A stretch of 41,751 nucleotides of DNA, taken from Clostridia bacterium (lineage in GTDB: Bacteria > Bacillota > Clostridia > Christensenellales > Aristaeellaceae). Shown here piece by piece: positions 24,242-41,751 of the stretch. The position numbers and the translations under genes were made by a program. Below the pieces are notes generated by a model, which was not told the origin of the DNA, made no database searches, and saw nothing but the letters and a program-made list of their open reading frames with translations. The DNA is taken from positions 1-41,751 of the forward strand of contig JAFWES010000002.1 of assembly GCA_017512805.1 (NCBI GenBank). Direction: 5' to 3'. How positions within the stretch are numbered: the first letter of the stretch is position 1; every line of letters begins with the position of its first letter.

Positions 24242-27200
24242 CTATTCATCTTCCACAGGTAATGCCACAAAATGGATACCCATTTCCAGCGAGGAGCTTT
24301 CAGCCAGTCCCCCCGCCGGACCATACACGGCGATCAGCGACGTGCAGCCGTCGAAGGCGCTGGGGGACATGTCACAATCCCGGGACACGCGGATCTGTGT
24401 CAGTCCGGTGCAGTTTTTGAAAGCGTAATCGTCGATGTTCTGACAGTTGCCTGCGTCGACCACAGTGATGGACGTGTCGCCCTCGAAGGCATTATCATCT
24501 ATCGTCTGTGTGTAGGCGGGCAGGGTGAAGGTCGGAATGCCGAAGGGGGGCAGGGTAAGCGGGAGCGCGGATGGATCATAAGGCGTGATCGTCACGCCGG
24601 CCATCAGAGAGCTTCTGTCACTCATTGCTGGGGAAACGACACGCAGCACGTTGTAATCCTGGTAGATGAAGGGTTTCTCCAGCACCACATAGCCATATTC
24701 GTTTACGGTGATGCTGCAAGGCAGCGGCGTGCCGTTGGCGTCCGTGTTCCAGGTCAGGGTGACCGAGGCGCCGTCGCTGCCAGCGATACCTTTCTTTACA
24801 CTAGATGCGACGACGGTACCGCCGGAGATTGTGGTATCGGAATGGTTGCCGCCGATAGCGGGATACCACGTACTGCTGCTAGTCGCGTTGATATTGCCGC
24901 CGGAAATCATGACTGTGCTGCTGCCGCCAATCCCGCTGCCGATGCCCGCGGCTAAGCTTGACGTTGAGGTAATAACTGTACCGTTGGTAATGGCGACCCT
25001 GCCATCGCCATCCTGACCGCCGCCGATGCCCGCTCCGCCGCCTGTAGTGTTGGCCGTGACTTTGCCGCCAGTGATGGTGACCGTACCATTGCCATAAATT
25101 CCTCCGCCGATGCCCGCACCGACACTGCCGCTGACTGTGACATCGCCGCCGCGGATCACGATGTGGTCTCCGCTGTGTCTCTCACTACCGCCGATGCCCG
25201 CGCCTGAATCGTTTCCGGTCACGGTCACACGGCCGCCCAGAACGGTGATGTACCCGGCGTCGTGGGCGTTTCTGCCGTCACTGTCCGAACTGCCGCCTAT
25301 GCCCGCGTTTAATGTGGGTGGCGTGGTGATGGTCAGGAAGCCCTGCTTGCCCACATCTGCGTTCTGGCCGCAGATGGTCAGGCTGTCTCCTTCGTTCACC
25401 GTGATGCCCTGCGGGACTGTGAGATTACAACCATCAAGCAGGATCAGCGTTGCGTTGCCGCAGACAGTGACGCGTTCTGCAATGGTCAGGCTGTCTTCCG
25501 CCAGCACGTAGCCGGTCCATACGGTGCTGCTGGCGTTCAGCACAACAGTGTCCAATGGGATGAGCATATCCTGCAGTTCGCTGCCCACCCAGTCCCGATA
25601 ATGCAGACGTACCCAGTTAGCCGTGTAGTTACGGTCGCCGGTGGAGCCCTTCGGGATAATGACGTTTTTCGTGAGATCGTCCAGCCCCGTACCTGTCCAG
25701 CCCGTGAACACGCAGCCGGGGCGTGTGGGGTTGACGAGCGTGAAACTGTCGCTCTCTATGTGATAGCTGGTTGGATTGACTGCGCTGCCGCCGTTCAGAT
25801 TGAAGCCGATGCTGTAGTTTATGGGTGACCAGTTCGCCGTGTAGGACCGCTCTCCCATGGAACCTTTCGGGATGGTGACTGTTTCTGCCGGATCGCCGGT
25901 GATGCCGGTGCCCGTCCAGCCCAGGAACGCGTAGCCTGTGCGCTTTGGATTTATCAGCGTGAAGGTCTCGGTTTCCATGTTGTAGGTCACGCGGTTGGCT
26001 GCGCTCACGGTGCCGCCGTTCAGCTCATACGAAATGGCATAATTGACGGGATTCCACCCGGCCTGGTAGATGCGCGTGGCCCTGGAGCCGGTCGGAATGG
26101 TGACGGCCGCGGCCGTCTCTCCGCTCAGGCTGTCGGTCCAGCCCGCAAAGGTATATCCTTCGCGCACCGGGTCGTTCAGCGTGATCGGCGCGCTCTCCAC
26201 GGTGAAGCCCGTGGGGTTGGACGCCGTGCCGCCGTTCAGGATGTAGCCGATGCTGTAGGTGCCGGCGGTCCCCACTGTTTTTCCGGTTGATACGGCAGTG
26301 TTTCCGAACGTGAAGGCATTGCCGGCCAGATCCCGCACGGTTCCGTTGATTTCGTTGATCCGCAGCTCGCCGGTGCCGCTTACTGTTCCGCTGTAGGTCG
26401 CCACGTTGGTGCCCGCGCTCTCCGGCATGAGGTTCATCGTGCCCCAGGTGGTGTCCAGACTGGTGCCCGCGGCGTTGACGATCTCGTCAAAGCACAGGCT
26501 CACGATTACTTCGTTGCCATTCGCGTACCGCCCGTTCGCTGTCTTCGTCTGCAGCAGGTTCGGGGCGGTTGTGTCCAGCAGTGCGATTCGTGCGAACAGA
26601 TTGCGAAAGTACCAGTCGTCTTCGCCGGATCCGCTTGCGTCGAAGCGGACGTCCAGCTCCCGGGTATTCGGTTCCAGCAAAAGCGCGCCCGCGTTTGGCG
26701 CCTGCGCGCCGCTTCTGAATCTCTGCTGATACAGCTTTGCGTTCGCACCCGGAAACTCGGTATGGCCGCTGTTCTGTCCAGCGTCCGCCTGTGTCTGCGC
26801 GCCGCTTGCGTGGGGGAAGACCCATGGCATCTCGTCCGTCACCACGGACTGGCCGGTGGCGCTCAGCTCAAAGCACGCCTTGTACAGCGATTTGGACGGG
26901 GCGGATATCTCATGGTACTGCCCGTAATCATCATCGGGGTCGTATTCAGTATCCTTATCAGCCAGGATCTGGATGTATTGATAGCCGTCGTTCTCCTCCT
27001 TCATCATGAAGCCGAACGCCGCCGCCACCTTCGTCTGCGTGGCCTGGAGATATTCAGTCGGTTGGAGGTCCTGCAGCCTGCTGATGTCGTAAGTATGGAT
27101 CCTCTGTCCGTAGCCGTCGTCCGTCACCGTGGCGTACGAGCTCCCGGTCAGTTCGACATCATTATACTTCTGGTTCAGGGCTGAGGACGAGACAAACCCG

Positions 27201-27709
27201 CCGTCGCTGATATACAGCAGATCCGCGACGCTGTTGACGGCGGTGCTTATGTACTGCGTGCCGGTCGTCAGCGGAAAGATCCCCCGCCAGAGCTCATAGC
27301 CGCCCTCGTCGATCACCCGCAGGCCGTACATGCGCTCCGTCCCTGTCTGGTACCAGTAGCCGGCGGGCGAACTGCTGTCGCGCGCCTTCGGCGTGACGGC
27401 GGCATTCACATAGACATAATGGCTGCCGCCAAAGTTGACCTGGGTGTTCAGCGGTGTGAAATGGATGCCCTCGACCGCTGACACGCTGAAGGTCTGCAGG
27501 GTCAGGGCCGGTTTCACGCCGGTTTTATTGAACCGGGCGTCAAGCAGCAGATACAGTTGCTGAGAATCCGTGTCGTACTGTACTCTGACCAGCGGCGGGT
27601 CCCAGGTGTATGTGATCTCTTCCGCCCCCGCCATTCCCGGCAGGCCAAGCAGCAGAGCCACGCACAGCACTGCCGCCAGATAACGCGTAAACCGCCTGTT
27701 TTTCTTCAT
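24242..27709 (-). CDS. Large secreted protein: Ig-like, InlB_B repeats, beta-helix, BspA LRR
   Basis: An 1155-residue exported protein. Residues 1-29 are a signal peptide (RRFTRYLAAVLCVALLLG, cleavage after AGA). Residues ~30-380 are a beta-rich region of unknown type, and ~385-478 look Ig-like (DTTAPNLL...DLAGNAF). Three Listeria-Bacteroides (InlB_B) repeats lie at ~484-552, 556-627 and 631-699. Glycine-rich repeats with GAGIGGG and TVTITGGKVT at ~790-970 suggest a right-handed beta-helix. Residues ~1065-1140 have BspA-type LRR motifs (IDDYAFKNCTGLTQI). There is no LPXTG, SLH or TM anchor at the C-terminus, so it is released or held by an unknown means. AAGGAGG precedes ATG 27709. It probably has an adhesion or matrix role. 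Confidence 0.88.
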   Translation of the reverse strand: MKKNRRFTRYLAAVLCVALLLGLPGMAGAEEITYTWDPPLVRVQYDTDSQQLYLLLDARFNKTGVKPALTLQTFSVSAVEGIHFTPLNTQVNFGGSHYVYVNAAVTPKARDSSSPAGYWYQTGTERMYGLRVIDEGGYELWRGIFPLTTGTQYISTAVNSVADLLYISDGGFVSSSALNQKYNDVELTGSSYATVTDDGYGQRIHTYDISRLQDLQPTEYLQATQTKVAAAFGFMMKEENDGYQYIQILADKDTEYDPDDDYGQYHEISAPSKSLYKACFELSATGQSVVTDEMPWVFPHASGAQTQADAGQNSGHTEFPGANAKLYQQRFRSGAQAPNAGALLLEPNTRELDVRFDASGSGEDDWYFRNLFARIALLDTTAPNLLQTKTANGRYANGNEVIVSLCFDEIVNAAGTSLDTTWGTMNLMPESAGTNVATYSGTVSGTGELRINEINGTVRDLAGNAFTFGNTAVSTGKTVGTAGTYSIGYILNGGTASNPTGFTVESAPITLNDPVREGYTFAGWTDSLSGETAAAVTIPTGSRATRIYQAGWNPVNYAISYELNGGTVSAANRVTYNMETETFTLINPKRTGYAFLGWTGTGITGDPAETVTIPKGSMGERSYTANWSPINYSIGFNLNGGSAVNPTSYHIESDSFTLVNPTRPGCVFTGWTGTGLDDLTKNVIIPKGSTGDRNYTANWVRLHYRDWVGSELQDMLIPLDTVVLNASSTVWTGYVLAEDSLTIAERVTVCGNATLILLDGCNLTVPQGITVNEGDSLTICGQNADVGKQGFLTITTPPTLNAGIGGSSDSDGRNAHDAGYITVLGGRVTVTGNDSGAGIGGSERHSGDHIVIRGGDVTVSGSVGAGIGGGIYGNGTVTITGGKVTANTTGGGAGIGGGQDGDGRVAITNGTVITSTSSLAAGIGSGIGGSSTVMISGGNINATSSSTWYPAIGGNHSDTTISGGTVVASSVKKGIAGSDGASVTLTWNTDANGTPLPCSITVNEYGYVVLEKPFIYQDYNVLRVVSPAMSDRSSLMAGVTITPYDPSALPLTLPPFGIPTFTLPAYTQTIDDNAFEGDTSITVVDAGNCQNIDDYAFKNCTGLTQIRVSRDCDMSPSAFDGCTSLIAVYGPAGGLAESSSLEMGIHFVALPVEDE

Positions 27710-27909
27710 ATCGTTTCCTCCTTCAGCTCTCGCCGTGCCGGGAAAACTCCGTTGCCACTTTTGATTCACACGCCTGTTACTCTACGTTATATTGTACAAC
27801 TTAAGGGTATTGAAAGTCAAACAATAGTTCTTTCCGCCTGGGACGTCCCTTGCAAGTATTATTGCGGGCATTCCGCTTACATACACCGCACCGCAAAATG
27901 ACGGTGTGA

Positions 27910-31048: not shown

Positions 31049-31921
31049 TTATTTGATGTTCTGTCGAAGCGCTTCCGCGAACTCCCATTGCAGGGAGGAG
31101 TCGCTGCGCTCCGGCCAGAAGGCAAAAATCTTCCGGGTCAAGGGCACTTCGCCACGATATAGCGGCAGGAGCGCGGTGCCGTCATCTGTCGACATATCGG
31201 CGTCGCAGGGATAAAAGCCGATCCCGGCGGCGGCGTTCATCCGGGCTTCTTCCACGTTTTCCGTAAAGAGAAAGCTGGACTGCAGTCCCATCACGTCACG
31301 CCAGTGGGATGCTTCATTCTCCCGTTGCTCCGGCGAAGTCACCAGGATGCACAGCCTATCCTGCATATCATACATCGTCACCCGTCCGGCTGCTGCCAGC
31401 GGGTCATCCTGACGGAGCAGAGCGAAGAGCGGCTGCTCCATCAGCTCCTCATTGATAAACTGATCTGACAGCGCCCGCCACTGGTCGTTGATCACCATGT
31501 CCAGGGAGCCTTCGTTGACCGGGTGAAAAAGCTCTTCATGGGTGCCGGTGGTCAGGGACAGCCTCACGTGGGGAAGCGAGGCTGTGAAACTCTGAACTGT
31601 CTTCTGGATGATCCTGGCGCTGAATCCGTTTAACACGCCCACCCGCAGCCGCTGATACTCACCGCTGGCAATACGACGAACCTCCCGGACAGCACTGTCC
31701 AGGGCCTGCACCTGTTTCCTGGCCTGCTCGTAGAAATACCGACCTGCAGGTGTGACCGTGAACTTTCTACCATGCCGCTCAAGCAGCTGCACCTGCAGTT
31801 CTTCCTCCAACGCCTTGATCTGCTGGGAGATGGCGGACTGGGAGATGTGGCAGATTTCACCTGCCTCGAAAAAGCTGTTGGTTTCCACTACAGCGATAAA
31901 GTAGCGCATTTGACGGTGCAT
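31049..31921 (-). CDS. LysR family transcriptional regulator
   Basis: About 290 residues. The N-terminal winged helix-turn-helix reads MRYFIAVVETNSFFEAGEIC and HISQSAISQQIKALEEELQ, the LysR consensus. The linker and the periplasmic-binding-like effector domain follow (TTGTHEELFHPVNEGSLDMV, ENVEEARMNAAAGIGF). It binds DNA as a tetramer and answers a small effector. GTG 31930, ATG 31927 and ATG 31921 are all in frame; GGGAG is ten bases from 31921, which I prefer. It most likely controls the flavodoxin-SDR-AKR redox genes next to it, as in many Firmicutes clusters. The effector is unknown. Confidence 0.92.
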   Translation of the reverse strand: MHRQMRYFIAVVETNSFFEAGEICHISQSAISQQIKALEEELQVQLLERHGRKFTVTPAGRYFYEQARKQVQALDSAVREVRRIASGEYQRLRVGVLNGFSARIIQKTVQSFTASLPHVRLSLTTGTHEELFHPVNEGSLDMVINDQWRALSDQFINEELMEQPLFALLRQDDPLAAAGRVTMYDMQDRLCILVTSPEQRENEASHWRDVMGLQSSFLFTENVEEARMNAAAGIGFYPCDADMSTDDGTALLPLYRGEVPLTRKIFAFWPERSDSSLQWEFAEALRQNIK

Positions 31922-31938
31922 CTGCATCACTCTCCCTG

Positions 31939-32289
31939 TTACATTGGTGTTCCAACCTCAATCAGATTTCCGTCCGGATCATAGAAACGTACGACCTTCT
32001 GTCCCCAGCTGTGCGTCATCAGTCTGTTCACATACCGAACTTCCGGGTAATATGTTTCCAGCCTGTCAACGAAGCCCTCAATATCGGCTTCCTCAAAATA
32101 TAGTTCGCAGGAATTGCTCTCGGGAATGATCGAACTCAATTCTTTCTGTCCGCCGTCGTAGTAGACGATCACTTTAGAGATGTTCTTGCTTTGGTCATGA
32201 AAAACAAATGTGACGAGATAATAATCCCGCACATCCCGTGTTTCACCGAAATCGCCGCTTTCATCGATCAGCAGACTGAACTCTTTCAT
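31939..32289 (-). CDS. Chimeric small protein: DUF3800-like start, VOC (glyoxalase-type) end
   Basis: 116 residues in two unlike parts. Residues 1-~38 (SLLIDESGDFGE, then YYLVTFVFHDQSKNI) look like the N-terminal acidic motif of DUF3800 proteins. From about residue 42 the sequence is the C-terminal half of a vicinal-oxygen-chelate protein: NSCELYFEEADIEGFVDRLE, THSWGQKVVRFYDPDGNLIE. The usual first VOC strand-helix unit is missing. The frame is open throughout, with GGAG six bases before ATG 32289, so it may be made, but a normal VOC metal site cannot form in full. It is probably the product of a deletion that fused two genes. Confidence 0.6.
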   Translation of the reverse strand: MKEFSLLIDESGDFGETRDVRDYYLVTFVFHDQSKNISKVIVYYDGGQKELSSIIPESNSCELYFEEADIEGFVDRLETYYPEVRYVNRLMTHSWGQKVVRFYDPDGNLIEVGTPM

Positions 32290-32523
32290 GCCATACTCCA
32301 AAAAATGACGGGAAATTCTTCCCGCCTGCCGTGATTCAAGGAACTCATCGCTCAGATCGCTATTATATTACCATGATTCGCTGATGTGCGCAATAGCATA
32401 TAGAAAGTTTTCCGAGGAGTGAGTCCGGTGAAAGGTCTGATGACCCGGACAAGGCCGTTCATCGTCTGCCTGTCAAACCGGGGCAGCGCCAGAGACTGAG
32501 ACGATACATATGCTGTATAAAAT

Positions 32524-32568
32524 GGAGCTGTCCCTTGATGAACGGATAAGCGCATCCGGGACAGCTCC
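32524..32568 (-). terminator. Terminator of the giant LRR/InlB protein gene
   Basis: GGAGCTGTCCC (32524-32534) and GGGACAGCTCC (32558-32568) form a perfect 11-bp stem with a 23-base loop; ATTTTATAC follows on the minus strand. It lies 24 bases after the stop at 32592. The rest of 32302-32591 shows no gene I can support. Confidence 0.6.
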
Positions 32569-32591
32569 GTTTAAAAATTGATGAATGTTCC

Positions 32592-35500
32592 TCAGTGGCT
32601 CGTCAGCCATCCGTTGCTGATCGGAACAAATGTATACCCATAAGCATCGGCGAAGCTTTCCGCCCGAGTCCCCGGGAATCCGTAGATATACTGCACCCCG
32701 CTGTGATGGAAGGCGTCGTATGCGATGCTGTTCACGGAAGCAGGGATGATGACCGCCTCGGCGGGAATCCCGTAGAAGGCTTCGCTCTCGATCGTCCCTG
32801 TCGCGGCGGGCAGCTTCAGGAAGCCCGATACCGTGGGCGTAATCCACTTTGCGTATACGGTGAATCCTTCTGTCACCGGATCCGCGAAGGTGCAGGGAGT
32901 GCTGTAGTCGCTGTCAAGATACCATCCGTCGAAGATACTGCCGGCCATGAACGGGTCCGCCGGCCAGTCGGCATAATCTCCTGCATTTAGTTCCTGGGCC
33001 GGCACATCCGCGTCCGCAAAGGTAATCAGGCAGAAGCTCCTGCTGTCCGTGAAGGGTACGCCGCTCACCGTCGCGGTGGCGGTATAGATGACGCTCCGGC
33101 CGTCTCCGCTGATCTCTCTTCTGATCGTGCCTGATACTTCCGTTCCGTTTGGCAGGACGAAAACAGCGCGCTCCGTGCCGTCCCATTCCCATTCAGGGAG
33201 GACGACTGTGGCGTTCTGATGCAGAACCAGAGTGGTGATTCTCTGAGTCTGAAGCCCTGCATTCCAGGTATACGTGTAAGTGACGTTTTCGCCGTCCTGT
33301 ACCCGGTTGCCGTCCAGATAGGTTTTCAGCAGCCGGAGCTGGCCGGAAAGATCCAGTCCTGTGAGCAGCGGCGCGCCGGGCGCTCTCAGGGTTTCGATCT
33401 GTACGCTGCCGGTCGTTATACTGTTCAGGCCGGGATTGTTGCTCAGATCCAGACCGGTCAGGCCTGACAGCGCGCTCACGTCGACGCTTCGCAGATCGTT
33501 GTTCTTCATCGACACGAAATGAAGATGCTGATTCTGGCTCAGATCGACTTCATCCAGGCCGGAACCGTCCAGCCTGATTTCAGCTACGCTGGTCAGGTAT
33601 TCGATCCCCTGCAGGCTGTGCATGCCGGTGACGCTGCCGGCCCAGGTCGTGGAGAGCACTGTGATCTCAGAGATTTCATTGTCTGTCAGCACGCCGTTCT
33701 GGTTCCTGTCAAAATTGATGCGGCCCATGAATTCACGGAACGCGGCATCCGGGAAGTGCGCTTCGTCGATCGGGATGCCGGAGGTGATGAAGCCGTTCAG
33801 CGGTGTTCCGTGAGAGAGGTAAACAATATAGTTGACATTATTCAAATGAATCAGGTGGCGCTCATAGGTATTCGGTTCATTGCCTACAGTGGCAACCTGT
33901 CCGTTCGAAATAGCAAGACACAGATTGGGACACCCGGACAGATCAATCTCAGTGACGCCGGTAAACTGAAGTTCCAGGACTCGGATCCCGGGAGCGCTGA
34001 GCTGTACGCTGGTCAGATCCGGATTGTTATAGAGATACACTGTGCCGGTCAGTTCCGTGCATTTCACAGCGTTCACGGTGGTCAGCGCATTGTCCCGGGC
34101 ATTCAGGGTGGTCAGTTTGGTGTTGTTGTTCAGGTTCAGGGAAGTAATCTGATTCTCCTGGCATTCGAGTGTCTTGAGTTCCGTATTGTGGCTGAGATCG
34201 AGCGCTGTCAGGTTATGATTCTGACATTGCAGCGTCTCCAGCTTCGTGAAATACTGAATCCCCTGAAGATTGGATATTTTTTGGCCATTATAGGTATAAT
34301 ATCTGAGATCGAGGGTGGTAACATCATCCCGTTCCGAGGCAGAGAGGTAGTGAGTGCCGTTTGCATCCGTGTGGCCCTCTGTGGCTATGTTTTGCAGCAC
34401 ATAGTGCCGGAACACCTCATCCGGGAAGTTGGCCGCGTTGATGGCGATGCCCTCCGGCACCCATACGGCGTAGTAGGTCGCATCGCCGGTGCAGGTGGTG
34501 TTCGCAAATCCATAGGTATAAGTTGCATTGGCATAGGGACTCCAGCCTTCGAAGACGTATTCTGTCCGGGTTGGCCTGGTGGTCGGCGGGATGATGGCGT
34601 CTCCGTAGGCGTATGTCTGGATGATATTCTCCTCGTTACCGCCGTTCATGTCGAAAGTGACGGTATACGATGCCTTTTCCCACTTGATATAGATATCCAC
34701 ATCCGCGGTCAGCGGCACGTCCGGATTGAATGGCACGGTCAGGGCCTCATCCGTGAAATATCCCGTCATAACCCAGCCGTTGTAATGGGGCGGATCCTCC
34801 AGGGCATAGCTGAGAAAACTGTCGTCGCTGGGTACGCAGTTGTAGGGGATAATGTAGGTAAAGGTAGAGACCATTCCTCCGGAGGGGTTGGTATAGTGCC
34901 TTGTCACGGTATAATTGTTGGCCCAGCCTGCGTAGAGAGTCGTATCGCCTGTAGCCGCAGCGCTGAAATCGTACAGATTCACGCACTCCGGCTCGGTATA
35001 CCAGCCGGTGAAGGAGATCGATCCGGGATTGCCGGAACCGGTATAGCGCAGCGGCACGATCTGCCGGAAAGGCTGGCCGGTACGCGTTTTCAGTTCTACA
35101 GGAGTATCCGGTTCAATATCGCTGTAAGTTCCGTCTGCCGGCCTCCACCGCGTGACGTTATGAATGCCGTTCCAGTTGTATGTCACGGTATAACCGTCAT
35201 AGAGCCAATGGGCATACAGCCTGATATTCGCTGTGACCGGTTGGGCAAAGTCGAATCTGTTCACGCATTCGCTTTCCCGATACCAGCCTTCGATGTACCA
35301 GCCCTGCCAGGTATCGCTGTCCGTACGAAGCGTGTACACGTCCGGCATGGCTACGGGGCTGCCTTCGTGCACTTCTTTCCTGCTGACGGGGAAATTGTTA
35401 GGCCCCCGCCCGTTCGGGTCAAAGTCTACTGAGTGCCCCCACCAGGCATAGAGTGTCAGATTAGCCGTAACCGGCTCAGTAAAATGATACTTGTGCGCAG

Positions 35501-37445
35501 GAGCAAAATCGGTGTCGGTATACCAGCCGCCGAATACCCAGCCATAAGCAGTCGGTATTTCCGGCTGCATCACAGTTTCTCCTTCAGGCACATGCTGGAC
35601 ATCAGGCGTCAAACCATGATTACAGTTGTCAAAAGAAATCGTATACACGTGCTTCTCCCATTGTGCGAGGAAGCAGGTGTCTTTCGTGATGCGAACTGTA
35701 TCCCCCGGATAAAGGATGGCTGATGTCTCGGTTTTCCAACCGCTGAAATAATAAGTTGAATCAGGCGGGGAAAACGTACACTCAGGAAGTTCAATGAGGC
35801 AGCTGTTGACAGTACTTTCGTCGGGCATATTTCCTGACCCGCCATTTGCATCAAATGATATATGGAAAATGAGGTAGGGAGAAAACGGAACCCCATTATC
35901 GTTTGCAAAACTTTCCGCTGTGGAACCGAGATAACCAATAATAGTCAACTGAGGGCACTTTGAGAATGCCAAAGAATCTATATTCATCTGACGATTCAGA
36001 ATAATTGCATTTAGAAGATTCGGACAATCGTAGAATGCCCCGATACCAATACGGGATACACTTTCGGGAAGCGTGATTTCTCTTAGCTGTTCACATGAGG
36101 AGAATGCGTTGCCATTGATTCGCTGTAAGCCATCCGGAAAAGAAACATGACCCAGGGAAGTGCATTGGTCGAACGCACACTGTTCAATTTCTCTGAGGCT
36201 TGAGGGAAATGTGATGTCGGAAAGCGACGAACAGCACCAAAAAGAATGACCGCCGATTCTGTCTATACCATTCTGGAAAACCAGACTCAATAACCTTTTG
36301 CAGTTAGCAAACGCATATTCACCATACGTTCTCAGACTTCCCGGGATGCTCAGACTCAGAACGCCGCATTCTGAAAAAGCATATTTACCGACACTTGTCA
36401 GATTGTTTGAAAGAATGATCTGTGTCAGATTCGTACACTTCCAGAACGCTTCTTCTTCGATGACGGTAACAGTATCCGGAATCGTGAGGCTTGTCAGACC
36501 GGCGCAGTTATAGAAGACGGCTGGACCAATGGTTTCTATCCCATACGGAAGGGTCAGTGAACCATCAATCTTTCCGCACGGATAAACCAGCAATGTTTTC
36601 CGGTTTTTACTCAGAAGCAGGCCGTCTTCTGAAGCATAATTAGCATTCATTGGGTCAACAGTGAAACTCATCAGTGCATCGCATTCATTAAAGGCCCGCT
36701 CATGGATGCTAGTTACACTGGACGGTATTGTAATAGTGGTAAGATTTTGACAGCGCAGAAAAGAATATCGGCCGATACTTGTAACACTGGCAGGAATAAC
36801 CACGCTGGACAGGCTGGTACAATCAGTAAAGGTGTTGTCCTCAATAGCAGATACACCATAGGGAATGGTTATTCTCTTCAGACTGCTACATGCGTTGAAT
36901 GCAGCGCAGCCAATGCTGGTGACACTGTCTGGAATTACAATCTGCTCCAGGCTTGTGCAGGAAGAAAACGCCCATTCGTCAATCGTAATTACACTCGATG
37001 GAATATTGATCTGGACCAGACTCGTGCAATGGTTAAAAAGGCTTCTTCTGATGCTATCCACTCCGTATGGAATGGTTATAGAGGTAAGCTTTTTACAATA
37101 TAGAAAGGCACATTCTCCGAGGCTTCTGATGCTAGATGGAAGTGAAATCGCTGTGACATTTCCGCAGCTTTCAAAAGCATAGCTGCCTATGTGCGTAATT
37201 CCCTCAGAGATGACAATGGATTTTATAGAATAATTGGTCTCAAATGGTGATCTGTTGCTGCCACTTACAGGATAATCTGTCATTGCCCCGCTTCCGTTTA
37301 TTGAGAGTACGCCTGTATCACTGTCAATCTGCCAATGTACATTATTTCCACATTCCCCTGTAGTAATACCTGCTTTAGCAACGGTACAACACACCAGCCC
37401 AAGTATTAGTCCCAGTACCAGCGCGATCCACATCTTCCGCTTCAT
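32592..37445 (-). CDS. Giant secreted BspA-LRR / InlB_B-repeat protein
   Basis: A 1617-residue exported protein. Signal peptide 1-25 (WIALVLGLILGLVCCTVAKA). Residues ~70-515 are about 18 BspA/TpLRR-type leucine-rich repeats of 23-24 residues (for example SVTSIGRYSFLRCQNLTTIT). Residues ~525-1000 are InlB_B (Listeria-Bacteroides) repeats with the FxGWYTD signature. Residues ~1008-1390 are two SDS22-like LRR blocks, each led by an AANFPDEVFR/EAHFPDAAFR segment; the second has an EF-hand-like loop DRNQNGVLTDNE. One more InlB repeat and a last BspA LRR end the protein. No LPXTG, SLH or TM anchor is visible. AAAGGAGG precedes ATG 37445, which overlaps the response-regulator stop (ATGA). It is probably an adhesin or surface-matrix protein under that regulator. 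Confidence 0.9.
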   Translation of the reverse strand: MKRKMWIALVLGLILGLVCCTVAKAGITTGECGNNVHWQIDSDTGVLSINGSGAMTDYPVSGSNRSPFETNYSIKSIVISEGITHIGSYAFESCGNVTAISLPSSIRSLGECAFLYCKKLTSITIPYGVDSIRRSLFNHCTSLVQINIPSSVITIDEWAFSSCTSLEQIVIPDSVTSIGCAAFNACSSLKRITIPYGVSAIEDNTFTDCTSLSSVVIPASVTSIGRYSFLRCQNLTTITIPSSVTSIHERAFNECDALMSFTVDPMNANYASEDGLLLSKNRKTLLVYPCGKIDGSLTLPYGIETIGPAVFYNCAGLTSLTIPDTVTVIEEEAFWKCTNLTQIILSNNLTSVGKYAFSECGVLSLSIPGSLRTYGEYAFANCKRLLSLVFQNGIDRIGGHSFWCCSSLSDITFPSSLREIEQCAFDQCTSLGHVSFPDGLQRINGNAFSSCEQLREITLPESVSRIGIGAFYDCPNLLNAIILNRQMNIDSLAFSKCPQLTIIGYLGSTAESFANDNGVPFSPYLIFHISFDANGGSGNMPDESTVNSCLIELPECTFSPPDSTYYFSGWKTETSAILYPGDTVRITKDTCFLAQWEKHVYTISFDNCNHGLTPDVQHVPEGETVMQPEIPTAYGWVFGGWYTDTDFAPAHKYHFTEPVTANLTLYAWWGHSVDFDPNGRGPNNFPVSRKEVHEGSPVAMPDVYTLRTDSDTWQGWYIEGWYRESECVNRFDFAQPVTANIRLYAHWLYDGYTVTYNWNGIHNVTRWRPADGTYSDIEPDTPVELKTRTGQPFRQIVPLRYTGSGNPGSISFTGWYTEPECVNLYDFSAAATGDTTLYAGWANNYTVTRHYTNPSGGMVSTFTYIIPYNCVPSDDSFLSYALEDPPHYNGWVMTGYFTDEALTVPFNPDVPLTADVDIYIKWEKASYTVTFDMNGGNEENIIQTYAYGDAIIPPTTRPTRTEYVFEGWSPYANATYTYGFANTTCTGDATYYAVWVPEGIAINAANFPDEVFRHYVLQNIATEGHTDANGTHYLSASERDDVTTLDLRYYTYNGQKISNLQGIQYFTKLETLQCQNHNLTALDLSHNTELKTLECQENQITSLNLNNNTKLTTLNARDNALTTVNAVKCTELTGTVYLYNNPDLTSVQLSAPGIRVLELQFTGVTEIDLSGCPNLCLAISNGQVATVGNEPNTYERHLIHLNNVNYIVYLSHGTPLNGFITSGIPIDEAHFPDAAFREFMGRINFDRNQNGVLTDNEISEITVLSTTWAGSVTGMHSLQGIEYLTSVAEIRLDGSGLDEVDLSQNQHLHFVSMKNNDLRSVDVSALSGLTGLDLSNNPGLNSITTGSVQIETLRAPGAPLLTGLDLSGQLRLLKTYLDGNRVQDGENVTYTYTWNAGLQTQRITTLVLHQNATVVLPEWEWDGTERAVFVLPNGTEVSGTIRREISGDGRSVIYTATATVSGVPFTDSRSFCLITFADADVPAQELNAGDYADWPADPFMAGSIFDGWYLDSDYSTPCTFADPVTEGFTVYAKWITPTVSGFLKLPAATGTIESEAFYGIPAEAVIIPASVNSIAYDAFHHSGVQYIYGFPGTRAESFADAYGYTFVPISNGWLTSH

Positions 37446-38116
37446 GCTCTGTTTCCTCCTTTGGTTGTTCTGTTCTCGGTGCGGTCGTCCTCGTGCACGA
37501 CCAAGCCCAGGGCTTTGGCGTTCACCGCCAGGTCGATGCGATTCTTATAGCCGGTTTTTTCCAGCATGTGCTGGATATGATTGCGCACGGTGTTGACGGA
37601 GATGTGCAGCTGCTGGGCAATCTCTTCGTTGGTGTAGTTGCGGGTCAGCTCCCGCAGCACCTCCTGCTCCCGCTCGGTCAGATCCGCCTTCCGGGCGATG
37701 CCGAACTCCGGGTTGGGCAGGCTGTCCGGATAGACAGATTCGCCGTCCATGGTGCGGTCCATGACCTCGGTCAGGGAAGTGGACGAATACTCCTTGAACC
37801 AGAAGCTTTCAACCCTGGCCCGGCGCGCTTTTTCGATCCATTCGGCCTCGGCTGTGGAAGTGGTGAGGATGATCTTCACCTCCGGGTGGCTGGCTTTGAT
37901 GCTGCGGGCGCAGGTGAGGCCGTCCAGCCCGTGCTTCATCATCACGTCCATCACGACCAGGTCCACCGGATTCTGATCGCAGAAGATGATGGCCTGCTCG
38001 GCGCAGGGGATCGAGGCTGCCAGCTCGTATCTCTCTGACATGCGCACGAGTCCCTCAAAAAAGCCCCGGGCCAGGTACTGGTCGTCCACCACGGCGACAC
38101 GAACGCGCTCGCTCAA
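37442..38116 (-). CDS. NarL/FixJ-type response regulator (REC + LuxR HTH)
   Basis: 224 residues. The receiver has Asp11/Asp12 (VVDDQ), phospho-acceptor Asp57 in VVMDVMM, and Lys in WFKE. The LuxR-type helix-turn-helix (~150-210) reads LTEREQEVLRELTRNYTNEE and IAQQLHISVNTVRNHIQHML, a full match to the family. The start is TTG at 38116 with GGGTGAT upstream. It should be phosphorylated by the kinase encoded 161 bases upstream and then bind DNA as a dimer. Its stop codon overlaps the start of the giant surface protein gene, so the two are translationally coupled. The palindrome at 38243-38260 is a candidate binding site. Confidence 0.93.
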   Translation of the reverse strand: MSERVRVAVVDDQYLARGFFEGLVRMSERYELAASIPCAEQAIIFCDQNPVDLVVMDVMMKHGLDGLTCARSIKASHPEVKIILTTSTAEAEWIEKARRARVESFWFKEYSSTSLTEVMDRTMDGESVYPDSLPNPEFGIARKADLTEREQEVLRELTRNYTNEEIAQQLHISVNTVRNHIQHMLEKTGYKNRIDLAVNAKALGLVVHEDDRTENRTTKGGNRA

Positions 38117-38138
38117 AACAGATCACCCGCTCTCATCA

Positions 38139-38171
38139 TAAAAATGCAGCCGTCGGGAAAACGGCCGCAGC
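38139..38171 (-). terminator. Terminator-like hairpin just before the response regulator
   Basis: Minus strand: GCGGCCGT (38168-38161), a seven-base loop, ACGGCTGC (38153-38146), then ATTTTTAT. It is an 8-bp stem with one mismatch and five T, ending 22 bases before the TTG start. It either ends the kinase transcript or attenuates read-through into the regulator and surface-protein genes. Confidence 0.5.
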
Positions 38172-38242
38172 GAAAAGGAAAATAACAGCCCGATTCCCAT
38201 AATTGTCCATACTCAGTTTATCGGGAAAAACAGGGCTTGCAT

Positions 38243-38260
38243 ATAGTCCGGTCGGACTAT
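38243..38260. promoter_or_regulatory. Inverted repeat upstream of the response-regulator gene
   Basis: ATAGTCCG-GT-CGGACTAT, with 8-bp perfect arms and a 2-base centre, lies in the 161-base gap between the kinase and regulator genes. Its size fits a LuxR-type dimer site. Six T follow on the plus strand (one shared with the right arm), so a weak plus-strand terminator is an alternative reading. Confidence 0.4.
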
Positions 38261-38277
38261 TTTTTGTTACAGAAATA

Positions 38278-39543
38278 TTAAATTTTGTTTTGATTGGGCG
38301 TTTTGGGCAGAATAATGTCCAGGCGGAAGGCTGGAATGCTTTCCACGTGCATATGTCCTCCCCTGCGCTCCGTCAGTGCCCGCAGGGACAGCAGCCCGCC
38401 CGCTTCACGGATCGGCCCGGATGGCGTTATGCCATTGTTTTCCAGGGAAAAGCGCGTCCCGTCTTCCTCCTGCCTGATCTGCACGGACAGAGCGCTGCCG
38501 CCCGCGTGCTTCACGGTGTTGGCGGCGCTTTCCTGGATGGCGGCAGCCAGCAGGCTCCGCTCGGGTTCTTCCTGCGGGATCCGGCCTGTGATCGTGACCT
38601 CCACCCCGATGGTCTCCGCCATGTCGATGGCATCCGCCAGCGCATCGCGGGCAGTGTCGTCCTGTTCGTACTCCCGCAGCAGGTAGCTGTTGGTATTTCT
38701 GAGCGTCTGCAACAGCATCGCCTCGTTGAAGGCTTTGGGGTCGCTCAGATAGTGGCGGCTCTCCAGCAGGATGTGACCCAGCTCGTCGTGCACAGTCATT
38801 CGGGCGGACAGCAGCTCCTGGGCGGTGATGATCCGTTCGGCCTGGCGGTTGTAGATTTTCAGGCGCAGCTGGATGTCCCTGAGCTTCCGGTTCTTTTCCT
38901 GAAGGTCGTTCAGGATTCCGGCCTGCCCGGTGATGTCCGTAGCGATGAACTCCGTGAGCGCTCCGTCCGGATGCGGGCAGGCGTCGAACTGCCACACCTT
39001 TCCATCCAGGGACAGTGGGCCTTCCCCTGCCGCCGCCCGGAATTGGTCCATATCATGCAGCGGGGATCCTGTCAGAGCCAGGGAAAGCCGTTCCATCACC
39101 AGGTTGCGGAAAACCACGCCGCCGCCCGGTTCGGCGAAGGCAATGCCCACCGGGAGCAGGTCCATCGTTTCCTTGATGCTGTCCTGCGTCAGATGATTGT
39201 CCCGGTAGCGGCGGGCTTTCCCCGCGGCCGGGATGAGCGGAACAGCCAGGAAAGCCTCCGCCAGCGCCAGCGCCCAAACCGGGAGCGCTCCGACCGCCGC
39301 AAGCCAGGCCGGAAGGGCGGCGAAACCGCCGCCGGTATTGTTCTCCCAGGAAATCATGCACAGGCAGAGCCAGAGAACCGCCGCGCAGAGGAAGAAGGAG
39401 GCCGTCAGTACGCTCCGGACCCGGCGGCTCCGCCCGTCCCACCGGGCGGCGATAAGCAGCGTCATCCAGCCTGTCAATGCCAGAAACAGCACGCTCAGCA
39501 GGGGCTGCCGCCAGACGGAAAACACGGCGTCATGGATCGTCAT
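38278..39543 (-). CDS. NarX/DesK-type sensor histidine kinase
   Basis: 421 residues. Three or four TM helices in the first ~105 residues are followed by a PAS-like segment (~120-210), a coiled linker, and a HisKA_3-type dimerisation domain with MTVHDELGHILLE (phospho-accepting His252), the HDxxGH motif of the NarL-partner kinases. The ATPase domain shows the N box ESAANTVKHAGG (Glu338, Asn342) and the glycine-rich AGGLLSLRALTERRGG. The G1 motif is weak (SLENNG). It should phosphorylate the LuxR-type regulator encoded next. Its start overlaps the stop of the upstream kinase-like gene (ATGA at 39540-39543), implying the two membrane proteins are made together and may form one sensor. Confidence 0.92.
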   Translation of the reverse strand: MTIHDAVFSVWRQPLLSVLFLALTGWMTLLIAARWDGRSRRVRSVLTASFFLCAAVLWLCLCMISWENNTGGGFAALPAWLAAVGALPVWALALAEAFLAVPLIPAAGKARRYRDNHLTQDSIKETMDLLPVGIAFAEPGGGVVFRNLVMERLSLALTGSPLHDMDQFRAAAGEGPLSLDGKVWQFDACPHPDGALTEFIATDITGQAGILNDLQEKNRKLRDIQLRLKIYNRQAERIITAQELLSARMTVHDELGHILLESRHYLSDPKAFNEAMLLQTLRNTNSYLLREYEQDDTARDALADAIDMAETIGVEVTITGRIPQEEPERSLLAAAIQESAANTVKHAGGSALSVQIRQEEDGTRFSLENNGITPSGPIREAGGLLSLRALTERRGGHMHVESIPAFRLDIILPKTPNQNKI

Positions 39544-41195
39544 TCTCCCTCACCGCCCTTCTTTTCATTCATTTCGGGGAGAAGCTCCAGATACAGGATC
39601 CCCTCCTCCTCCCGCGTCCGCGCGGCCACAGGGAGGGTGCTCAGGTTCGGAATGCGCTCCGCCTCCGTTGCTAAGGAAAGGCCGTCGCCCCGCCAGGAAA
39701 CCATCAGCGACGAGGCGTTGCCCGTCAGCTGCTCCGCCACATTTTCGAAGGCGTCGTAGAGGGCGATTACAAGGGCGGATGGGAGAAGCGTATCCTGCTC
39801 CGGCGGCTGCACGTCGGTATGCAGATCAGCCAGGGACAGATAGCTCGCGGACTCCTGCAGCGCCAGGAACAGTGTCTGGGTAGACAGGCTGTCCTGCTCC
39901 GCCGCCAGCAGGAGCAGGTTCGTCTTCCGTTTCACAAAAGCGTTCAGTACAGACACCTGGGCAATCTGCTTCCGGAAGGCGGGTGTATCCGGTTTCATCT
40001 GCCCCAGCAGCCCTTCGATGCGCTGCTGGCAGGGGTACAGGATCTCCGCGATCTCGTGATAAATACGGTGCCGGGACTGCAGCCAGGCATCCTTCTCCCG
40101 CTGCTCCGTCTCGGCCTGGATCAGGCTGTTTTCCGATTCAATGAGCTCATTGGCTTCCGCCAGACGATCCTGGGCCCGGTGCACCTCGGTTTCATCTTCG
40201 GTCCAGAAGGCGAAACCCCCGCGTACTGCATGCCCGGAGAGCTTTACGTCCGGCGTCAGGTACACCGGAGCGGCAAGCGCGGCCTGCAGCTGACCCGCCT
40301 CAGCGCGGAGCGCTTCCCCGGACCGGTAAACGGGATGGAACCCCCTGTCCGTGACCAGGGCAGGCGTTCGAAGCCTGCTGAAAAAAGCCATGTAGTTCTC
40401 GTTATGCTGAATCAGCCGGTATCGGATACAGACCTCAAACACGCCCAGCATCCCGAAGATGTGGATCTCGGGGTTGTTATACATGTGCGGTCCATAGATC
40501 CCATCCTGGAACAGGATAAATATTAGCAAAATTCCGAACCATAACCCGACAACGGCAAGCAGGGCTAAAAATGCTTTTCCGCGCTGCCTCGCAGTCGTCA
40601 GAAGCAGCAGAAGAAGGCCCGCGGCAAAGCTCAGGATCATCCAGGCATACAGGGCATAGAAGACCGGGCCATGTGTATAGGTGCCGGTATCCACGGCAAA
40701 CTGGCTGAGAGCCACCCGGGGCGAATATACCAGCCCATGGAGATCATTGGTCAGGGCCAGCAGGGAGAGCAGGCCCTGTGGGATCAGCAGCAGGGTTTCA
40801 TCCCATCGTCCCGCTCGGTTCCCCCGTCGGATGCGCAGGCTGGTCATCAGGAACAGCGTCGGGATCAGCGTCATGGGAAGAAAATACAGATAGACCGAAT
40901 ACCTCAAGGCGCCGGGTTCCACAGCGAATCGATACTTGAACACCCGAAGAAGCTGGTACAGGAGCATCATCAGCGCAGCCCCCGTCACCCAGGTTCTTGT
41001 GCGGGACGGCAGCAGCCTGGCCCGGACAGACCGCAGCCAGAACAGCAGGAGGCCGATATAGATCAGGTAGTTGGCCTCCGTCATCAGCGACTCCAGCTCC
41101 GAATTTCCGCTGAATGCCAGCAGATTGGCGAAGCCTGCCAGCAGGAGGAAGGCCGCAAAGAAAATGGTTCGGCGCGTGGTCGTGCGGTCGCTCAT
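39540..41195 (-). CDS. 7TM sensor, kinase-like but without a recognisable ATPase domain
   Basis: 551 residues from ATG 41195 (AGGGGAG upstream). The first ~260 residues hold seven or eight TM helices like the 7TM receptor part of histidine kinases (HisK_N_7TM). A short PAS-like region follows (~270-335), then a coiled coil (~338-370) and a helical pair resembling a dimerisation domain: HRIYHEIAEILYPCQQRIEG, with a His in the expected place. The C-terminal ~130 residues have the length of a small ATPase domain, but I find no N box, DxGxG or GxG motif. It therefore looks like a pseudokinase or ligand-sensing partner of the true kinase encoded next, with which it is translationally coupled. The ligand is unknown. 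Confidence 0.75.
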   Translation of the reverse strand: MSDRTTTRRTIFFAAFLLLAGFANLLAFSGNSELESLMTEANYLIYIGLLLFWLRSVRARLLPSRTRTWVTGAALMMLLYQLLRVFKYRFAVEPGALRYSVYLYFLPMTLIPTLFLMTSLRIRRGNRAGRWDETLLLIPQGLLSLLALTNDLHGLVYSPRVALSQFAVDTGTYTHGPVFYALYAWMILSFAAGLLLLLLTTARQRGKAFLALLAVVGLWFGILLIFILFQDGIYGPHMYNNPEIHIFGMLGVFEVCIRYRLIQHNENYMAFFSRLRTPALVTDRGFHPVYRSGEALRAEAGQLQAALAAPVYLTPDVKLSGHAVRGGFAFWTEDETEVHRAQDRLAEANELIESENSLIQAETEQREKDAWLQSRHRIYHEIAEILYPCQQRIEGLLGQMKPDTPAFRKQIAQVSVLNAFVKRKTNLLLLAAEQDSLSTQTLFLALQESASYLSLADLHTDVQPPEQDTLLPSALVIALYDAFENVAEQLTGNASSLMVSWRGDGLSLATEAERIPNLSTLPVAARTREEEGILYLELLPEMNEKKGGEGE

Positions 41196-41383
41196 CGTTC
41201 TTCTCCCCTCTGCGGAAAACACAGTCCGCCGCGCGGTCCCCCGGGTGAAATCAGCATCCTTTCAGAATTCCGGAACCCGGATCCGCAGGGGATCGGGGGC
41301 CTTCCTTCCGGGCCCGTCACACGGTTCTGCATATGACGCAGAAATTTCATTGATGAAATCGCAATGGAATTTTACCAGGGGTG

Positions 41384-41412
41384 ATTATACCGGAATGAAG
41401 CCGCGTTGTCCA
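41384..41412 (-). promoter_or_regulatory. SigA-type promoter of the sensor-regulator-surface protein operon
   Basis: Minus-strand TGGACA (41407-41412), 17-bp spacer, perfect TATAAT (41384-41389). It gives a leader of about 180 bases before ATG 41195. Inside the leader an inverted repeat ATTTCAT-TG-ATGAAAT (41344-41359) could be a regulator site or hairpin. Confidence 0.75.
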
Positions 41413-41751
41413 TGCCTATACGGAAACCGTGCCTGGTGATATCATTCAGTTCAAATACGTCAAGACGCTCAGCCTATCATAAAAAGCGGACCGGCTGGGA
41501 ACTTATCCAGTCGGTCATTTCGTTTACACCGATTCCCGGCTATTCGTTCACACCCATGCCTTATTTCTATATCATCGGCGGCGATCCGATGTCCAGTCTT
41601 TCTTTCTTCGTTGTGAACTTCCAGAATAATTAACCCGCTTTGGCATAAGACCGGACGTCCAGATCTTGTGCCAGGACTTGATTTTTCTACGCAAATGCTG
41701 GAATTTCCGGTTGCGAAACCGGGAAGAATGTGGTACTATGTAGCGGGATAA
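41413..41751. other. Right-hand end of the window without an assignable gene
   Basis: Upstream of the operon promoter I find no gene I can name. Two short plus-strand frames have protein-like composition (one ending with YFYIIGGDPMSSLSFFVVNF at 41633, the other ending PGRMWYYVAG at 41751), but neither has a start with a ribosome binding site or a known motif. They may be fragments or chance. Confidence 0.3.

Follow-up and report, generated by a model that had tools for sequence, protein, structure and literature searches.

The stretch of DNA analysed here, 41,751 nucleotides of contig JAFWES010000002.1 from a Clostridia bacterium (the window), carries a gene cluster that we read, with a probability of about 0.72, as a three-component system in which a hetero-sensor drives the gene of its own regulator and genes of giant surface proteins. 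In this reading the two sensor proteins would form a heterodimer and the regulator would bind a predicted operator. The receptor, kinase, regulator and surface-protein ORFs are all co-directional on the minus strand, and the features of the locus are, in the direction of transcription:

41384..41412, minus strand: sigma-70-like promoter 5' of the receptor gene, from its consensus match (11/12)
39540..41195, minus strand: 7TM receptor-like pseudo-histidine kinase, 551 aa, ATG start, Pfam PF16927
38278..39543, minus strand: histidine kinase, 421 aa, HATPase_c 0.0052, DHp H252, CA N342
38238..38263, minus strand: putative operator, A-tract and 7-4-7 inverted repeat AAAATAGTCCGACCGGACTATATGCA, from conservation in the homologous place, HTH co-variation and genome scans
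38215..38220, minus strand: TAAACT, -10 box of the promoter predicted for regulator and surface protein, at the spacing of most operator copies
38145..38169, minus strand: hairpin resembling a terminator, with TTTTT after it, within the predicted regulator leader, from a sequence scan
37442..38116, minus strand: NarL/LuxR-type response regulator, 224 aa, D57 and K108, TTG start, Response_reg and GerE
32592..37445, minus strand: secreted surface protein, 1617 aa, with BspA-type LRR_5, Listeria-Bacteroides (InlB B) repeats and LRR_4, from Pfam
32524..32568, minus strand: intrinsic terminator 3' of the surface-protein gene, from direct reading and folding

An earlier note on this DNA had described the four genes (receptor, kinase, LuxR-type regulator and 1617-residue surface protein), two ATGA overlaps at 39540-39543 and 37442-37445, the promoter and the terminator, and all of these were present, the overlaps being read directly. 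The promoter TGGACA-17-TATAAT at 41412-41384 was the best (11/12) among 15 promoter-like sites in 31500-41751, where shuffled sequence gave a mean of 7.1. The terminator at 32568-32524 consists of a long stem, GGAGCTGTCCC...GGGACAGCTCC, followed by ATTTTAT; it has no entry in the automated terminator scan, its loop exceeding the length which that scan permits. For the receptor an alternative earlier start is possible at a GTG at 41222. No conserved element was seen among the homologues in the alignment rows shown for the DNA 5' of the receptor gene, and an Rfam search of 32000-41751 returned no family at gathering score. The List_Bact repeat model of NCBIfam passed its own cut-off in the large protein, and among the NCBIfam matches listed (for the regulator the best 25 of 88) an equivalog cut-off was reached by none of the four proteins.

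The receptor contains a HisKA_7TM domain (Pfam PF16927, 1.9e-11), and this N-terminal 7TM module was found by Pfam in 21 of 21 receptors. A HATPase domain was not detected in the receptor in Pfam at E up to 1, nor did it occur among the 11 families listed for the 21 receptor homologues (E up to 0.1), in agreement with the earlier description of a 7TM sensor that has no ATPase motifs. The linker between HisKA_7TM and the C-terminus appeared PAS-like by eye. At the position taken as the H-box His the receptors carry Asp in 32, His in 11 and another residue in 10 of 53 sequences. When the profiles were compared by hhalign, the C-terminal region of the receptor was colinear with 93 columns of the C-terminal region of the kinase (probability 53, E 1.4e-4), over a span reaching from the end of the DHp domain to between the G1 and G2 boxes. 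The same profile gave at most 1.4 against the regulator, the N-terminal part of the receptor and two further kinase regions, and at most 0.4 in five column-shuffled controls; the middle regions of receptor and kinase gave 19 and their membrane regions 32. Since the aligned part stops short of the H-box, the equivalence of the two His positions rests on context. Owing to this similarity of the C-terminal profile the receptor looks like a kinase devoid of its chemistry, and we concluded, with moderate support from the sequences, that it is probably a kinase that lost its chemistry and kept a kinase-like remnant. A PDB sequence search with the receptor profile returned chance-level matches alone (best E 0.29). 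The receptors of L128-L131 and L133 have an extended N-terminal part and measure 716-779 aa overall.

The kinase has about three TM segments by inspection and a middle part that is PAS-like by eye. Its HATPase_c match (0.0052) lies under the curated cut-off of Pfam. The H-box His (H252) and the N-box Asn (N342) were each conserved in 51/51 sequences, and the two Gly of the G2 box in 49/51 and 51/51. The first G1 position was Asn in 43 and Asp in 2 of 51, with Asp at the second position in 12/51; as the G1 Asp is thus mostly replaced by Asn, ATP binding would be atypical. The family profile of the kinase matched DesK across DHp and CA, as well as the CA domains of VraS, DevS and DosT. Judged by these sequence features, the protein is an atypical DesK/VraS-like histidine kinase.

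Receptor and kinase genes are closely coupled. They adjoin in 59 of the 61 loci compared, a set that includes two paralogues of the window genome and the near-duplicates L113 and L114 (L019, apparently the same contig as L029, was left uncounted), and 49 of those 59 loci show an in-frame NTGA overlap of 4 nt. The two exceptions are L020, with no kinase found and a contig that ends about 1 kb beyond, and L104, with a cut-off kinase scoring below threshold. The earlier note had suggested a hetero-sensor; its degenerate, kinase-like first sensor and the adjacency of the two genes stand, and because of both we favour this idea, with the heterodimer itself being what gene coupling and the sequence remnant would suggest. 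Receptor homologues at E up to 0.001 were found in 10 of 61 genomes, the own genome included, in 24 of 297 genomes of the order and in 33 of 391 of the class, some of the matches being short or weak. Three copies of the receptor-kinase pair lie in the window genome (contigs C7, C8 and C74). Ten named relatives are metagenome-type records, one with dairy-cattle duodenum in its title, six with RUG names, which we take to be a rumen series, and three SRR bins, and bear the taxon labels Blautia, Lachnospiraceae, Ruminococcaceae, Clostridiales and Clostridia.

A further element, absent from the earlier note, lies between kinase and regulator. An alignment of the DNA from the kinase stop to the regulator start revealed a conserved inverted repeat directly 5' of a -10 box, in the window at 38215-38263. 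This operator-promoter was present at the homologous place in 25 of the 61 loci, in 23 by a regular expression and in L036 and L103 by eye, and was not found in the other 36, in many of which the kinase and regulator genes overlap. It occurs under six family labels (f1, f16, f24, f42, f74 and f96) and goes with whichever gene leads the downstream unit. In the window and in L017, L021, L026, L028, L033, L034, L101 and L119 it stands 5' of the regulator; where the surface gene separates kinase and regulator (L030, L032 and L118) it stands 5' of the surface gene, with an extra copy 5' of the regulator in L030 and L118. In six further loci it lies across the stop codon of the kinase gene: in L022 and L120, and in L037, L105, L121 and L122, where operator DNA thus encodes the last kinase residues (e.g. 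...NQPxG).

The spacing between repeat and -10 box is nearly fixed. In 42 copies, chosen from the operator-string list after most contexts were known so that this statistic is not fully blind, the best -10 box, counted from the operator start, began at position 44 in 34, at 43 in 4, at 42 in 2 and at 45 in 2, and the TATAAT matches at positions 43/44 had a mean of 4.98 vs 2.48 ± 0.14 in shuffled sequence. The pairing within the inverted repeat was 5.08 of 7 vs 2.05 ± 0.22. Six of 24 operators have at most 3 of 7 dyad pairs, and these may therefore be direct repeats or asymmetric. With the first base of the -10 box set as -12, the centre of the repeat falls near -43, where LuxR-type class II activators usually sit.

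The regulator matched Response_reg (2.2e-16) and GerE (4.9e-16) in Pfam, D57 and K108 were each conserved in 51/51 sequences, and the best solved match of the family profile was VraR. With the starts as chosen, TTG is the first codon of the regulator gene both in the window (38116) and in several homologues, e.g. L026, L027 and L031-L034, which may keep its translation low. For 24 regulator-operator pairs, a set that excludes loci with no element found and in which L024 and L025 were placed in register manually, the distance between operators was correlated with the distance between HTH domains with r 0.73 and with the distance between receivers with r 0.53. The partial correlation of operator and HTH given the receiver was 0.59 (0/5000 permutations), and that of operator and receiver given the HTH was -0.07 (3981/5000). 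The three paralogous systems of the window genome have different operator variants; the half-site is TAGTCC in the C7 system and TGGGCC in the C8 system, and the remote copies in this genome match either the C7-type or the C8-type half-site.

To find further copies, whole genomes were scanned with patterns and with the model R1, the latter scoring 150 first-look candidates in each genome. The pattern matched 7 places in the own genome, and 0 when reversed as a control. R1 gave 6 matches at E up to 0.003, all at regulators or surface genes: the regulators on C7 and C8, a surface-fragment/regulator unit on C74, two ORFs on C32 and a truncated copy on C8. The C32 ORFs are remote giant LRR genes. 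As called they encode 2214 and 1603 aa, the first with 14 LRR_5 stretches and the second with 12, and both are preceded by an exact TATAAT (positions 44 and 42). The earlier note had seen the output as dedicated to one adhesin, a view that is not supported, as the same element precedes these other giant surface genes. The promoter and signal-peptide start of the 1603-aa gene are near-duplicated on C8 (L026:14596-14927, L146:14253), followed by a broken short frame. Dropped from the own-genome set were C91:33818 (3 mismatches), which has no -10 box in place and lies outside the R1 set, and the second-pattern matches on C13, C17 and C43 (3 mismatches), also outside it.

The largest set was found in G626, with 16 copies by pattern (reversed control 1) and 16 also by R1. 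A single copy stands 5' of the regulator, an orphan copy is followed by a tiny ORF, a tRNA-like stretch and uvrA, and contig ends cut 2 more. Of the 13 readable copies away from the regulator, the remaining 12 thus precede surface-type genes (LRR and/or SLH-like). By eye 11 of these 12 ORFs have a signal-peptide-like start, which the 325-aa ORF of L188 does not, and of the five ORFs scanned four contain SLH, LRR_4 and Big_2 and one contains SLH and Big_2. In G626, where 150 of 431 candidates were scored, about 50 LRR_4 frames were counted; about 10 of them, roughly a fifth, follow the element, which would therefore cover a part of these frames. G459 has three copies at the trio and two remote ones; the genes following the latter encode a DUF4428 protein and a protein of 495 aa, not LRR giants. 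G459:C22 was left out, having no -10 box in place. The remote copy in G020 lies at a contig end.

Across genomes, R1 at E up to 0.003 was found in 12/12 genomes with a close trio and in 0/11 genus or family relatives in which no receptor was found, a comparison that is partly circular because the model was built from those same loci. Four of the 12 close-trio genomes have remote copies, and the other 8 have copies at the trio locus only. In 7 other searched genomes R1 gave no match at this threshold, two of them reaching 0.0097 and 0.086. Weak matches were recorded at G213:C1:1136501 (0.019), G006:C11 (0.027) and G283:C1:894851 (0.086), and matches with 3 mismatches in G006:C3, G031:C101, G036:C36, G034:C3, G213:C1:658209 and G007:C6 were left uncounted. 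With a variant pattern, G051, G272, G283, G508 and G536 gave 8 sites in all, each at a trio locus (control 0), and 9 other genomes gave none; G283 and G536 have a second site 3' of the regulator, before the adjoining gene, whose product looks secreted.

The large protein of the window matched LRR_5 (1.7e-117), Flg_new (3.5e-53) and LRR_4 in Pfam and has a signal peptide by inspection. Among 43 loci with at least 3.5 kb readable downstream, 25 have a large secreted ORF there; upstream on the same strand it was found in 6 of 50 (p 2.4e-6) and upstream on the opposite strand in 7 of 50. These counts come from a crude hydropathy rule applied to up- and downstream spans that differ slightly; it misses L024, L026 and L028, in which an ORF neighbouring the regulator was judged by eye to be secreted or LRR, and may overcall, e.g. 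in L037 and L132. The genomes are mostly drafts, and giant repeat genes are often cut by contig ends. We concluded that the link of the system to surface genes is strong, not universal. The conservation of the four-gene order, which the earlier note had proposed to look for in other Clostridia, was found for the receptor-kinase part; beyond this the order varies, and in 18 of the 43 loci the crude rule shows no large secreted ORF. The regulator lies 3' of the pair in the window and in many loci, not so in L018, comes first in L029, and is separated from the kinase by the surface gene in the three loci named above. A conserved C-terminal surface-protein motif was considered and dropped, since matches to that end occur in numerous other LRR proteins of this genome. 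The window holds a second large protein (24242-27769, 1175 aa) with Listeria-Bacteroides repeats, a beta-helix and LRR_5, and no R1 match was found before its gene. In the distant trios L130, L131 and L134 a similar protein of about 130 aa follows the regulator, e.g. MRRIVINMQNSLFCNAI..., and in L131 and L134 it lies near secreted-looking genes.

The earlier note had read the locus as a single operon with a single promoter, in which case all four genes would be transcribed from 41384-41412 and the inner element would be incidental. The strong consensus promoter 5' of the receptor gene and the ATGA coupling at both ends would fit this, and between the kinase stop and the operator no terminator was found in the window or in 8 others of the 15 loci tested. 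The inner promoter is conserved across several families, however, and intrinsic terminators stand before it in the remaining 6 of the 15 loci. The conserved inner promoter thus ruled out one operon as the main reading, and we consider it very unlikely. Given the operator-promoter at 38215-38263 and the hairpin at 38169-38145, the four genes need not share one transcript. Since the regulator's own unit has its own predicted activated promoter, receptor and kinase on one side and regulator and surface protein on the other probably form two transcription units, and in the window there may be read-through from the upstream genes into the regulator unit. The hairpin at 38145-38169 sits downstream of the predicted inner promoter and 5' of the regulator start, and is possibly an attenuator added to the control by the operator. 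A sequence resembling it can be read in the leader of L029; the minimum-energy folds of whole leaders favour other pairings.

The inner element could also be bound by another factor, either a different LuxR-type protein or an alternative sigma factor, that happens to control the regulator and surface genes; a composite sigma promoter, too, would show such a constant -10 spacing. Yet the element co-varies with the HTH of this regulator and, given the HTH, not with the receiver. The presence of the element in the close-trio genomes and its absence from the trio-less relatives (12/12 and 0/11, partly circular as stated) also speak against another factor, as do the differing operator variants of the three paralogous systems in one genome, so that we regard it as quite improbable. 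At the sensor end, the 7TM protein might be an independent receptor or accessory modulator, acting as LiaF does on LiaS, and not a subunit of the kinase. LiaF and RocA are described as accessory proteins of Gram-positive sensor kinases in the part of the source available (PMC12675982). A C-terminus that aligns colinearly with some of the kinase C-terminus would, however, be needless in a pure accessory protein, and we hold this alternative to be unlikely.

Under the hetero-sensor reading, the 7TM receptor with its kinase-like remnant would pair with the adjacent kinase and gate it, and the overlapping stop and start would let both be translated at roughly equal dose. The kinase would then phosphorylate D57 of the regulator, as the conserved residues suggest. 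A phosphorylated regulator dimer would bind the 7-4-7 repeat about 43 bp upstream of the transcription start and, going by this geometry, activate in class II fashion, with the repeat overlapping a weak -35. One target would be the regulator's own unit, which carries the giant LRR/InlB protein through translational coupling; in some genomes remote giant LRR surface-protein genes would be further targets.

Whether this is an undescribed three-component family of gut Clostridia, in which every paralogue reads a separate operator code and switches a separate set of giant LRR adhesins, we consider an evenly balanced question. If so, several insulated copies per genome (three here) would allow a choice of giant surface coats by signal, and some lineages would write the operator through the last codons and the stop of the kinase. 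Giant LRR surface proteins are numerous in some commensal Clostridia genomes, and in the literature searches made no paper on their control was found. A searchable operator predicts target genes genome-wide and which regulator reads which site, and the 24 operator-HTH pairs are a ready set for recognition rules of the NarL type. Likewise, no publication on this system was recognised among the literature matches listed (titles and abstract openings, with subscription journals outside the scope).

Several parts of the system have known counterparts. The N-terminal 7TM module is shared with the HisKA_7TM histidine kinases (PF16927), whereas the recognisable HATPase and the phospho-His are missing in the receptors here. 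Of the hallmarks of DesK/NarL-type systems, the H-box, N-box, G2, D57, K108 and GerE features are present, and the G1 Asp of the kinase is mostly absent. DesK/DesR, VraS/VraR and LiaFSR resemble the system in that the kinase profile matches DesK and VraS and the regulator profile VraR, and LiaFSR has a LiaF-type accessory protein; to our knowledge none of the three has a 7TM pseudo-kinase partner. BspA-like LRR and InlB proteins have LRR_5, Flg_new and LRR_4 in common with the surface protein, which is here tied to a regulator and an operator. GacS/RetS is not known to be a translationally coupled pair linked to surface proteins. Interacting kinases in which the partner alters the signalling of the other are described, in the parts available of these sources, for GacS/RetS (PMC12148439) and for the pseudokinase ChrS with HrrS (PMC9491836), and as far as the latter goes, the same holds for ChrS/HrrS.

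The earlier statement that no described system is like this one was too strong, as FasBCA of group A Streptococcus is a precedent (PMC12675982). According to the available part of that paper, FasBCA is a three-component system with two sensor-kinase-like proteins, FasB and FasC, which form a heterodimer by two-hybrid; FasC is a proposed pseudokinase and carries a His thought to be phosphorylated (H246), and the RNA FasX acts on the mRNAs of the pilus and other surface proteins. On this basis both systems have two adjacent sensor-kinase-like genes, one regulator and a consensus site before the target. They differ in the presumed phospho-His, placed in the proposed pseudokinase FasC there and conserved in the kinase subunit here (the receptors have it in 11 of 53); in the regulator, FasA being ComE-like and the window regulator of the LuxR/NarL type; and in the output, an sRNA in FasBCA and here the surface-protein genes themselves. 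As far as this source goes, FasBCA is the nearest described arrangement found, and the window system would join FasBC as the second candidate for a dedicated sensor pair of pseudokinase and kinase.
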